A stretch of DNA of 19,914 nt from Calditrichia bacterium (GTDB taxonomy: Bacteria > Calditrichota > Calditrichia > RBG-13-44-9), in assembly GCA_026991005.1 (NCBI GenBank), contig JALXCH010000276.1:1-19914 (forward strand). The letters are read 5' to 3'. Both the position numbers and the translations under genes were made by a program. The notes below the pieces were generated by a model. It was given only the letters and a program-made list of their open reading frames with translations, searched no databases and was not told the DNA's origin. Every line of letters begins with the position of its first letter. Position 1 is the first letter of the stretch. Of the stretch, positions 16,090-19,914 are shown in pieces.

Positions 16090-17640
16090 ATGTTGAAAGT
16101 TGTAAGCTCCCGGCAAATGCGCGAAATGGATCGCCACACCATAGAAGATCTGGGAGTTCCCGGCGTGGTGTTAATGGAAAACGCCGGAGTAGGTACCTAC
16201 CGGGTAATTCAGGAGTTACTTTCGGAAGTTCCTGATCCTCTTGTGTACGTTTTTAGCGGAAAGGGCAACAACGGCGGAGACGGATTTGTGGTGGCTCGTC
16301 ACCTGTGGGATGCAGGGGTGCGGGTGAAAGTCATCATTGCCGGTGCGGAAGCAGATTTAAAAGGAGATGCCCTCATCAACTACCGCATCGTTCGGAATTT
16401 TAAAATCCCGGTGCTATTTGTGCAGAATGAAGCCGCTTTACAGAAAGCGACAGAAGAGGTGCCGGATCTCATTGTGGATGCTCTGCTGGGTACGGGTATT
16501 CAGGGAGCAGTGCGGGGATTTATGAAGACGGTGATTGAACACATCAACCGCCTGAGTGCACCGGTGGTGGCGGTGGATGTGCCTTCGGGAGTAAACGCAG
16601 ACCTTCCGGTGGTGGAAGGGGAAGCGGTTCGCGCCGTAGCCACGGTGACCATGGCGCTTCCCAAGCCGTGCCATCTGTTTTACCCGGCGCGCCAGTACGT
16701 GGGCGAACTGTTTATTGCGGATATTGGCATTCCCCACACCGTGCGGCAATCCCGGGAAGTTCACTTTCAACTGGTCGAAGCTGCGGATATTCGCTTACCC
16801 GTACGGCAACCGGATGCGCACAAATACCGAGTGGGGAAGGTGGCGGTTTTGGCGGGCTCGCCAGGATACACCGGTGCGGCAGCGCTGTGTGCCGATGCGG
16901 CTTTGCGCATGGGGGCGGGACTGGTGATTCTGGGCGTTCCGGAAGAGCTCAATCCCATTCTGGAAACCAAACTCACCGAGGTCATCACCCGACCCTATCC
17001 CACCGGGGGCGCAGCTTTTCTGAATGAGCACAGCCGCCAGGTGGTTGAGGAGCTTCTGGAGTGGTGCGATGTTCTGGCGATTGGCCCGGGATTAGGTCGC
17101 AGCGAGGACACCCGGAAACAGGTGGTGGAAATCCTGCAACAGTTCGACAAACCGGCTGTGCTGGATGCCGATGCCCTTTTTGCCCTCGCACAACATCCTG
17201 AATTGCTGGAGCAGCCGCACCCCCAATGGGTTTTAACTCCCCATCACGGGGAATTTCAGCGCTTTCTCCCGAAAGTGGATCGGGAAACATTTCGGAAGGA
17301 ATTCCCCCAGCTGGCTCAGCAGTTTGCCCGGGAAAAACAGGTGACGCTGCTCCTGAAAGGAGCGCCCTCGCTGGTGGCCGCCCCGGATGGTGAGGTGTAC
17401 ATCAATCCCACCGGGAACGCCGGGCTGGCCAGCGGCGGCACGGGAGATGTGCTTACCGGACTGGTGGCCGGTTTGCTGGCGCAGGGAATGGAGCCGGTTC
17501 CTGCTGCCTACACCGCCAATTACCTGCATGGTTACGCGGCGGACAAATTTGTGGAAGCCCATTCCCAATACACGCTGACTGCAGGGGAACTGATTAGCCA
17601 GTTGAATGTTGTTTTAAAAGAATTTCCCGGGGCAAAATAG
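16090..17640 (+). CDS. nnr: Bifunctional NAD(P)H-hydrate epimerase / ADP-dependent dehydratase
   Basis: Nnr repairs NADHX and NADPHX, the damaged hydrated forms of NAD(P)H: the N-terminal domain interconverts the epimers and the C-terminal domain dehydrates the S form using ADP. The 516-residue protein contains both. The YjeF_N domain (about 1-215) shows MENAG, the GKGNNGGDGFVVARHL block (57-72) and VDALLGTGI..AVRG. The ribokinase-like C-terminal domain (about 235-510) shows GSPGYTGAAALCADAALRMGAG in sequence, LAIGPGLG, VLDADALF, LTPHHGEF, LLKGAPSLV and the catalytic GTGDVL with D453. The ATG has an AGGAG site. It is separated from the PdxJ-like gene by 193 AT-rich bases with no clear terminator. 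Confidence 0.96.
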   Translation: MLKVVSSRQMREMDRHTIEDLGVPGVVLMENAGVGTYRVIQELLSEVPDPLVYVFSGKGNNGGDGFVVARHLWDAGVRVKVIIAGAEADLKGDALINYRIVRNFKIPVLFVQNEAALQKATEEVPDLIVDALLGTGIQGAVRGFMKTVIEHINRLSAPVVAVDVPSGVNADLPVVEGEAVRAVATVTMALPKPCHLFYPARQYVGELFIADIGIPHTVRQSREVHFQLVEAADIRLPVRQPDAHKYRVGKVAVLAGSPGYTGAAALCADAALRMGAGLVILGVPEELNPILETKLTEVITRPYPTGGAAFLNEHSRQVVEELLEWCDVLAIGPGLGRSEDTRKQVVEILQQFDKPAVLDADALFALAQHPELLEQPHPQWVLTPHHGEFQRFLPKVDRETFRKEFPQLAQQFAREKQVTLLLKGAPSLVAAPDGEVYINPTGNAGLASGGTGDVLTGLVAGLLAQGMEPVPAAYTANYLHGYAADKFVEAHSQYTLTAGELISQLNVVLKEFPGAK

Positions 17641-17734
17641 CTCTTTCTTTGTAGAAAAATTTTTAATAATTTAAAATACATTTTTCGGGAACACGTGGCA
17701 GCCATGTGAGCCAGAAACAAAAAGGAGAGGTCGT

Positions 17735-18439
17735 ATGGCAAAAGATACTCTGGGATGTGCCCGACCCATCAGCGGTACCGTAACTGCCACCGCTGAAAGC
17801 CGTGAAGCAAGCGAACCCAAAGACAATAAAAAGGAGGTCAAAATGGCAGTACAGGTTGGTAAAAAAGCACCGGATTTTGTGGCACCTGCCTATCATAACG
17901 GTGAATTTAAGGATGTCAAACTCTCGGATTATGCCGGTAAGTGGGTGCTATTGTGCTTCTATCCCGGTGATTTCACCTTTGTCTGAGCGACGGAAGTTGC
18001 GGCAGTTGCCGCTCGGTACAAAGAATTGCAGGATCTGGGAGTAGAGGTACTCTCCATCAGCGTGGACAGTGTATTTGTTCATAAAATGTGGAACGACAAC
18101 GAGTTAAGCAAAATGGTAGAAGGCGGGGTGAAATTCCCCATGCTCAGCGATGCAGCGGGCCGCGTGGGCAAAGAATACGGTGTGTACGACGAAGACGCCG
18201 GAATTGAGCTCCGCGGACGGTTCATCATCGATCCCGATGGTGTGATTCAGGCCATGGAAGTGCTGACCCCACCGGTAGGGCGGCGTCTGGATGAAACCAT
18301 TCGTCAGATTAAAGCCTTCCAGCATGTGCGTGCCAGCGAAGGCGCCGAAGCCTGCCCGGCTGCCTGGGAACCCGGACAAGCCACACTCAAACCAGGACCG
18401 GCATTGGTGGGCAATGTTTGGAAAGAATGGAAGCCTTGA
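17735..18439 (+). CDS. Selenocysteine-containing peroxiredoxin (AhpC/Prx1 type), UGA read as Sec
   Basis: One frame is open from 17735 to 18439 except for a TGA at 17984-17986. That codon falls exactly where the peroxidatic cysteine belongs: [21 protein letters not shown] corresponds to the family's DFTFVCPTE, and the P-x3-T-x2-C motif is intact with Sec in place of Cys. Downstream the frame continues as a normal 2-Cys peroxiredoxin ([42 protein letters not shown]) with the resolving cysteine in ACPAAWEPG, as in AhpC. With the 17843 start, Sec is residue 48 and the protein is 198 residues, the normal AhpC size; with the 17735 start it has 234 residues and Sec84. A bSECIS-like hairpin follows the UGA. 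It would reduce H2O2 and organic peroxides, recycled by a thioredoxin-like partner. It is a single gene followed by a strong terminator. Standard gene callers will truncate or split it. Confidence 0.88.
17831..17837 (+). promoter_or_regulatory. Internal ribosome binding site in the peroxiredoxin gene
   Basis: A perfect AAGGAGG lies 5 bases before the in-frame ATG at 17843. The outer ATG at 17735 also has a good site (AAGGAG, 17722-17727). The internal start gives a protein beginning [12 protein letters not shown], the usual peroxiredoxin N-terminus, so two products may be made. Confidence 0.55.
17983..18016 (+). promoter_or_regulatory. bSECIS-like hairpin downstream of the Sec UGA
   Basis: Immediately after the UGA (17984-17986) the RNA can fold in two ways. 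Fold A is a 5-bp all-GC stem, GCGGC-AGUU-GCCGC (17999-18003 with 18008-18012); its tetraloop begins 17 bases after the UGA and has a G at the second position, as bacterial SECIS elements usually have. Fold B pairs 17983-17989 with 18010-18016 (7 bp including one G-U), putting the UGA in the base of the stem. The folds are mutually exclusive. Either would be the SelB recognition element needed for Sec insertion. Confidence 0.6.
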
Positions 18440-18485: not shown

Positions 18486-18516
18486 AAACGAGCGAGTCTC
18501 TCCGGCTCGCTCGTTT
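18486..18516 (+). terminator. Intrinsic terminator of the peroxiredoxin gene
   Basis: ACGAGCGAG (18488-18496) pairs perfectly with CTCGCTCGT (18506-18514), extended by AA/TT, with a 9-base loop and a TTTT tail, about 46 bases after the peroxiredoxin stop. The AA before the stem gives only a weak tail on the minus strand, but it could also affect the convergent gene. Confidence 0.88.
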
Positions 18517-18547: not shown

Positions 18548-19914
18548 TTATTTAAACTCAATTAATCGAAAATAAATTCTTGATTTCCCTTCTTTTTCCC
18601 CAACCCATGTAGTAGCTATTTTATTTCTGTAGCTTGCAATGGTCATATAGTCACCAACATTTCGTTGTATCGGTGCAAATTGGGGATCGCCCTGAAGATG
18701 ACTCCAATCACAAGGGGTGGAATTTATTTTAATGTCCTGAAACGTATCACTTTTTAATTTAACTGACAAATAAACATCCGTTAATGTTGTGAAAGGATTA
18801 TTTCTGCGGTCGTAATAAAAAATGACTGGATATTTTTTTAAACTTGTCATCGTAGGGAAAACTCTTTCGTAATCTTTTGAAATATCTCCCACATAAATAG
18901 GTTTACTTTTTAACTCAAAATTATCGTCCAATTTTAAAAGAACTACACGAGAACCTCTGTTTTCTGTCCCTTCTACAAAGGTCAGCCAAAATAAGGTTTC
19001 ATCATCATTTATAGTATATGTCAACCATACACTTGCAGTAATCAGAAATGAAGCATCATTTCCTTTTTCATTTAAGGCACCAATGGTATATCCCTTAACT
19101 GTTTTTAATGTTTTTTTAATTCTGTATAAAAGTTTTGCTCTGGAGAAGGAAAATCCATTATTTATAGAGTAAGCATACCAGACTTCATTTTGATCCATAG
19201 CCCTTCCTTCAAGCCATGCAACTAATATTTTTTCATTGTATGAAACAACACAAGAACCTGTTTTTATAGGATTTATGGAATTAGATAATTTTATTGGAGA
19301 TAGCCAGGATTTTCCTTGATTAGAGGAATGAACAAAGAATATTTCATCTTTTTTATCAATAAAACTAGTAAAAGAAATGTTTATTTGCCCTGTTGGAGTT
19401 ATGCTCATGGAAGGTTTATCAATGAATTTACCCGAATAGGCTAAATATCTTTTCTTCCATTTACCTATCTCTTTATTATCCATAAAATAAACAAATAAAT
19501 AGTGAGAGCTATCCTGCCAGCTTAGAACCTGAAGGTAAAATTTACCGCTTGAATCACTTCCTAACCAGGAGTCGGCACCATCTACTCGCATAATAAATTT
19601 TTTATCGATTTGTGGAAGGTAGCCCCCAAAATTAAAATTTTTACCATTATTATATGATATTGCCCAACCAACAGAAGACCCGGTTTTAGAACCTACTTTT
19701 CCACCAAAACTATCATTCCACGAAACTAGCACAATATTTTTGTTTATTGTAACAGAGGGTTCGCATTGTAAATCACCGCCATTTTCTGGTTCACAGACCT
19801 GAATTTCCGGCCCTAAATTATACTCTAAACCATAAATGGTTTGAGAATATGAAAAAGTGTAATAAAATATTAAAAATATTAAAACCAAATTGTGTGATTT
19901 TATAAATTCATTTC
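18548..19914 (-). CDS. Exported Asp-box (sialidase-fold) beta-propeller protein, start probably beyond the window
   Basis: At least 446 residues are visible. The frame is open to the window edge: a TTG at 19888 is possible but has no ribosome binding site, and the residues upstream of it (NEFIKSHN) would supply the basic start of a signal peptide, so the true start is probably off the window. A hydrophobic signal sequence ending SYSQ follows. The rest is beta-rich with Asp-box-like repeats, S-x-D/N-x-G-x-x-W/F: SYNNGKNF, SSNQGKSW and SINNGFSF, each preceded by a strand such as WAIS, FFVHS or WYAYS. These repeats mark six-bladed sialidase-type propellers. I see no catalytic Arg triad to support a sialidase, so binding or another hydrolase role is possible. 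The gene is AT-rich compared with its neighbours. Confidence 0.65.
   Translation of the reverse strand, partial: NEFIKSHNLVLIFLIFYYTFSYSQTIYGLEYNLGPEIQVCEPENGGDLQCEPSVTINKNIVLVSWNDSFGGKVGSKTGSSVGWAISYNNGKNFNFGGYLPQIDKKFIMRVDGADSWLGSDSSGKFYLQVLSWQDSSHYLFVYFMDNKEIGKWKKRYLAYSGKFIDKPSMSITPTGQINISFTSFIDKKDEIFFVHSSNQGKSWLSPIKLSNSINPIKTGSCVVSYNEKILVAWLEGRAMDQNEVWYAYSINNGFSFSRAKLLYRIKKTLKTVKGYTIGALNEKGNDASFLITASVWLTYTINDDETLFWLTFVEGTENRGSRVVLLKLDDNFELKSKPIYVGDISKDYERVFPTMTSLKKYPVIFYYDRRNNPFTTLTDVYLSVKLKSDTFQDIKINSTPCDWSHLQGDPQFAPIQRNVGDYMTIASYRNKIATTWVGEKEGKSRIYFRLIEFK

Follow-up and report, generated by a model that had tools for sequence, protein, structure and literature searches.

The locus raises the question of what is made from a peroxiredoxin gene whose reading frame carries a stop codon at the position of the catalytic residue. 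The window, by which we mean the whole stretch of 19,914 nucleotides that was analysed, contains the following features around this frame.

17722–17727, plus strand: AAGGAG, a Shine–Dalgarno-like sequence ahead of the first start codon (ATG, 17735–17737), seen in the sequence
17735–18439, plus strand: prxU, long form of 234 residues, from matches to NF040737 and PF00578 and from translation
17984–17986, plus strand: TGA at residue 84, the peroxidatic position, almost certainly a selenocysteine (Sec) codon, from its retention in relatives
17999–18012, plus strand: SECIS hairpin GCGGC-AGUU-GCCGC, from its presence in 80 of 81 genes and from covariation
18486–18516, plus strand: inverted repeat 3' of prxU with 11-nt arms 9 nt apart and a short T tail, a possible terminator

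The only stops in the frame are the internal TGA and the terminal TGA (18437–18439), which is followed directly by TAA. The read-through product matches PF00578 (AhpC-TSA) with 139.4 bits over residues 41–173 in a Pfam profile search; translation and this match confirm the single in-frame TGA within an AhpC/Prx1-type frame that the sequence-only reading had described. The terminal TGA was considered as a second Sec codon and rejected, as TAA is the next codon and the relatives stop nearby with ordinary stops. Upstream, the neighbouring open reading frame ends at 17640. Downstream, the arms of the inverted repeat are 100% complementary; the repeat was not flagged by the terminator scan, which has a loop limit of 8 nt, against the spacer of 9 nt here. 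The convergent open reading frame beyond it (18548–19888, minus strand, 446 residues) has no Pfam match at an E value of 0.001. Scans of the window gave no Rfam match above threshold and no tRNA gene, and the promoter scan gave two consensus sites, both on the minus strand and near the shuffle mean.

Relatives of the gene were collected by a scan of the genome_contigs collection, in which at least 558 were confirmed. The best 80 were taken and, with the window gene, make up the set of 81 genes used below. The codon aligned with 17984–17986 is TGA in 80/80 of these best relatives, which come from many phyla, and the motif UATE is present in 79 of the 80 (UPTE in L056). A single internal TGA is likewise found in each of the 14 PrxU matches that score above the cut-off in 40 Calditrichota genomes. 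Six pattern matches were returned from viral_contigs, none coding for a relative.

The sequence downstream of the TGA was examined for a Sec insertion element. The 48 bases from the UGA onward align without gaps across the 81 sequences. By stem search, 80/81 of them have a hairpin whose loop starts at +21, and L043 has only a shorter stem there. In the window the apical loop, AGUU, occupies +21 to +24 counted from the UGA, and the G in a small loop is as the criterion for bacterial SECIS elements has it. Compared with shuffled alignments, the pairing is strongly non-random in three measures, none of which was equalled in 500 shuffles: the proportion of paired cells (92.8% of 567 versus 81.1%), the number of cells altered on both sides (80 versus 28.3) and the covariation score (0.314 versus 0.094). 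The number of further pair types (11 versus 8.1) was matched by three of the 500 shuffles, and the number of pairs altered on both sides (3 versus 2.4) by 233 of them. When the pairing is slid along the alignment the covariation score is at most 0.116. Two of the seven stem pairs are invariant, and the outer three fail to pair in 9, 13 and 18 of the 81 sequences. Folding of the window RNA by itself gives no advantage over its shuffles, and the signal comes from the alignment only. The first and last loop bases (18004 and 18007 in the window, columns 21 and 24 of the alignment) also covary, as A..U or G..C around an invariant GU; among 138 Sec genes the loop is GGTC in 77, AGTT in 60 and GGTT in one.

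Sequencing error can put a lone stop into a frame that is intact elsewhere, and so can nonsense mutation if the gene is an ahpC in decay. Against this, TGA stands at this codon throughout the best relatives, across many phyla, and the hairpin after it covaries; for the PrxU family this explanation is already refuted, and for the window gene we regard it as extremely improbable. The retention of TGA together with the covarying downstream hairpin is the ground on which the codon is read as Sec, almost certainly correctly, and it upholds the earlier placement of Sec at the peroxidatic position. In the mechanism we propose, SelB and Sec-tRNA would read UGA 17984–17986 as Sec, directed by the hairpin at 17999–18012.

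Decoding of the TGA to a different residue, for instance Trp, would be in keeping with the protein databases, where Trp stands at the Sec position in 95 of the 120 homologues listed (P0002–P0121). The site, however, is the catalytic Cys/Sec position, other frames in the window close with ordinary stops (the TGA at 18437 included) and the DNA of the relatives has TGA there, with the SECIS hairpin. We give the Trp reading almost no credence. Most simply, the Trp in the database homologues would be TGA mistranslated in the source annotation; its presence in many copies hides the PrxU family.

The host and its capacity to insert Sec were approached through relatives of the window organism. The LigA protein encoded in the window is 94% identical to one database protein, and its named matches are from Calditrichota; the best long LigA match among the 40 Calditrichota genomes (the phylum of G004, a Caldithrix MAG) is 83% identical, in G046. 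Within these 40 genomes PrxU is above the cut-off in 14, selA in 28 and tRNA-Sec in 27 (25 of them with at least 64 bits). Among the 14 genomes with PrxU, selA is found in 11, tRNA-Sec of at least 64 bits in 11 and at least one of the two in 12, while G048 and G017 have PrxU and neither selA nor a strong tRNA-Sec. selA is also found in 17/26 genomes that lack PrxU, and its occurrence therefore follows that of PrxU only loosely. SelB scores above the cut-off in 12/12 chosen PrxU genomes versus 2/14 controls. In the five genomes with the best long LigA matches, no PrxU is above the cut-off; four of them (G035, G036, G034 and G038) have selA and tRNA-Sec, and G046 lacks selA and has a borderline tRNA-Sec match. 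In the phyla of G002 and G005, PrxU is above the cut-off in 8/151 and 45/148 genomes, respectively, and the matches mostly carry one TGA (one and four, respectively, are free of stops). On the Sec reading, selA, selB, selC and selD would be needed elsewhere in the genome of the window organism, for which we infer Sec insertion. We are highly confident that the gene is a Sec-containing PrxU of a Calditrichota bacterium.

Four sequences from Calditrichota (L095, L096, L097 and L098, in G022, G046, G032 and G015) constitute a second Sec-peroxiredoxin family. They score 219–226 bits to the PrxU model, below its cut-off, and have UPTE and an AGTT loop at the SECIS position. From their hydrophobic, signal-peptide-like N-termini they are probably exported. 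G046, one of the four genomes, is the one whose LigA comes closest to that of the window.

Further features lie in the N-terminal part of the frame, ahead of the peroxiredoxin domain. The SECIS hairpin, a conserved N-terminal extension with a cysteine and an embedded second start were all missed by the sequence-only reading, and the frame 17735–18439 may have two starts, at 17735 and 17843.

17756–17758, plus strand: TGT, the N-terminal Cys8 in LGCARP, with Cys here in 81/81 genes
17830–17838, plus strand: AAAGGAGGT, a Shine–Dalgarno sequence inside the coding sequence, from the excess of the hexamer over a synonymous-recoding null
17843–17845, plus strand: internal start ATG at residue 37, giving a predicted short form of 198 residues, from a start codon in 126/126 genes

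The extension is open and in frame in 81/81 genes (the best 80 of at least 558 relatives and the window). Its GCARPTG-type motif keeps the cysteine in all 81, while the codons of the motif vary at silent sites, and for this reason the extension looks translated. A Shine–Dalgarno 4-mer precedes the nearest Met upstream of the motif in 70/81 genes; L056, L073 and L058 have no nearby ATG for the first start, and GTG is probable there. Among the 120 database homologues listed, the N-terminal Cys is present in 97 of 99 extended proteins.

The internal start was assessed against synonymous recodings of the same genes. A strong Shine–Dalgarno hexamer precedes it in 67/81 genes, compared with a mean of 18.9 and a maximum of 27 in 200 recodings, and a 4-mer in 80/81 (null 48.9, maximum 58). 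The mean pairing energy with the anti-Shine–Dalgarno sequence is −10.4 kcal/mol versus −5.7 kcal/mol in the null (standard deviation of the set mean 0.31). Codon choice is skewed in the same place: the GAG:GAA ratio for Glu is 94:26 in the seven codons ahead of the internal start versus 55:163 in the preceding linker and 403:597 in the core. Other in-frame ATG codons of the core have the hexamer at 17 of 464. In another 40 extended Sec genes, all of them different from those of the first set, the hexamer is present in 35 (null 9.6, maximum 17), and when the extended Sec genes are pooled a start codon stands at the internal site in 126/126 (124 ATG, two GTG). Kinship was handled by thinning to less than 75% identity, without a tree; in the 13 representatives that result the hexamer is present in 13/13, compared with a null mean of 3.1 and a maximum of 6 in 500 draws. 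Selection therefore acts on the second start site at the nucleotide level.

The extension was defined by the Cys motif in both the 126-gene and the 40-gene sets, so that extended genes without the cysteine escape them. The 40-gene set left out five duplicates of L001–L080, as well as L126, L163 and L168, which have the TGA and the Cys extension and gave no anchor. In that pass L156 and L173 were mis-anchored and gave no start, and L166 and L174 were mis-anchored and gave a wrong start; for the pooled count of 126 the anchor was improved and every locus was used. No pattern match was obtained from L171 and L191. The second start site is shown for Sec genes only: the Cys genes L180–L183 lack the Cys extension, L179, also a Cys gene, has an unrelated N-terminus, and these five are more AhpC-like and have little bearing on the extended Cys members (P0006 and P0082 among them).

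Two readings with a single start must be weighed against the use of both. If ribosomes initiated at the internal start alone, the upstream frame would not be made into protein. The strength of the embedded Shine–Dalgarno sequence would fit, as would the founding PrxU (locus L117): the published protein reportedly has 203 residues, which is its length from the internal Met, although the database record annotates 240. Against this, the leader is open and in frame throughout the 81 genes, its Cys motif is kept while the codons vary silently and most of the genes have a Shine–Dalgarno 4-mer ahead of the nearest upstream Met. We consider exclusive use of the internal start improbable. If instead the first start alone were used, the embedded Shine–Dalgarno sequence might slow ribosomes or be the relic of an older start. 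Two unextended Sec relatives, L184 and L187, have the same Shine–Dalgarno sequence and ATG with no other in-frame ATG upstream; they start at this site, which could thus be inherited. A relic would decay, yet the hexamer is in every one of the 13 thinned representatives; a start codon is kept in all 126 genes, including the two with GTG, in which the residue has changed and the start codon has not; and the Shine–Dalgarno sequence lies 5–9 nt from the internal ATG in 73/81. This second reading is unlikely, though a more serious contender than the first. We favour the production of both isoforms, with and without the N-terminal Cys, and judge it reasonably likely from the pattern of conservation. 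Ribosomes starting at 17735 would make the 234-residue form with the Cys motif, and those starting at 17843, from its own Shine–Dalgarno sequence, the short, AhpC-like form of 198 residues; both would decode the same Sec. Each gene of PrxU, a family of curated selenoproteins, looks as if made to yield two forms. If both exist, a part for the N-terminal Cys in the redox cycle can be put to the test, and any study confined to the short form would have overlooked it.

What the N-terminal Cys might do depends on the other cysteines of the protein.

17954–17956, plus strand: TGC, Cys74 in LLCFYP, ten residues before the Sec, present in 81/81 genes
18353–18355, plus strand: TGC, Cys207 in EACPAAW, at the canonical C-terminal resolving position, from translation

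In established peroxiredoxin chemistry, the peroxidatic residue attacks the hydroperoxide, a thiol resolves the oxidized product and thioredoxin serves as the reductant. By analogy, the selenolate of the window protein would attack the hydroperoxide, and the selenenic acid would be resolved by a thiol and then reduced by thioredoxin. In Cys207 the window protein has the cysteine at the C-terminal resolving position that typical 2-Cys peroxiredoxins have. The earlier assignment of a resolving cysteine stands for this gene and does not carry over to the family, in which only 15/81 genes, the window among them, have the C-terminal Cys. The N-terminal Cys was considered as a simple stand-in for it and set aside, as the mutual exclusion to be expected is not clearly seen: the C-terminal Cys is present in 24/126 extended versus 4/12 unextended Sec genes (n = 138, Fisher p = 0.26), and in 24/126 versus 4/8 without the probably exported L095–L098 (p = 0.059). 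These counts are suggestive of exclusivity at most. A structure model of the monomer has a pLDDT of at least 90 at 163/235 positions and below 50 at residues 1–4, 9–15 and 17–35; it gives the N-terminal Cys, in this low-pLDDT stretch, no position. The fuller proposal, that PrxU genes of several phyla have a dual start and that in most members resolution has passed, wholly or in part, from the lost C-terminal Cys to the N-terminal one, is a tentative one that we think may well be wrong. If it were true, alternative initiation would set the ratio between a self-resolving Sec–Cys enzyme and a 1-Sec enzyme that depends on an outside thiol.

Comparison with known systems places the gene in PrxU. 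The closest structure matches of the model are PrxA, human Prx2 and AhpC. AhpC (TIGR03137) and the Prx1-type 2-Cys peroxiredoxins have the fold and the active-site run in common with the window protein; they differ in having Cys rather than Sec, mostly CPTE rather than UATE, and no N-terminal Cys extension. The window protein scores 203.9 bits to the AhpC equivalog TIGR03137, below its cut-off of 272, and 402.7 bits to NF040737 (peroxi_PrxU), for which the curated cut-off is 270, over model positions 3–231 of 233. It is an ordinary member of this family, which also includes Cys members above the cut-off (P0006, P0082 and P0028). The Ala after the Sec, which had been remarked on as a departure from the usual Pro, is unusual relative to AhpC and usual in PrxU: it is found in 79 of the 80 best relatives (of at least 558) and in 106 of the 126 extended Sec genes, the other 20 having Pro, and Pro is found in 12/12 unextended Sec genes.

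Prx, with the TxxU motif of the window gene, is listed among the known bacterial selenoprotein families in the consulted parts of two reviews, which cite the 2001 founding paper (PMC13188914; PMC9312934). From the part consulted, an early selenoproteome survey counted 43 Prx sequences and 22 in a Prx-like COG0450 group (PMC1088965), and a 2013 genome paper found PrxU genes in only two of the sulfate reducers compared (PMC4046663). Neither the N-terminal Cys extension nor the second start is mentioned for the Prx family in the portions of the selenoproteome surveys consulted, nor is either described for PrxU in those of PMC13188914, PMC8533274, PMC4046663, PMC1088965 and PMC9312934. The literature searched, which did not extend to the founding 2001 paper (Sohling et al.), holds no description of either, and the conserved dual start is the part of this analysis that may be new.

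The nearest known system is the founding PrxU itself, from Peptoclostridium (Eubacterium) acidaminophilum (NZ_CP007453.1, WP_084481301.1, annotated prxU). It scores 408 bits to NF040737 and is 66.8% identical to the window protein over residues 7–232. As it has the same scaffold and UATE, and as the window gene scores so far above the PrxU cut-off, the suggestion that the latter is a notable case apart from PrxU does not hold. The two differ at the C-terminal resolving position, where the founding protein has Ala (EVAPSGW) and the window protein Cys. They agree in the TGA with UATE, in the GCARP motif of the extension and in having a Shine–Dalgarno sequence ahead of both starts.
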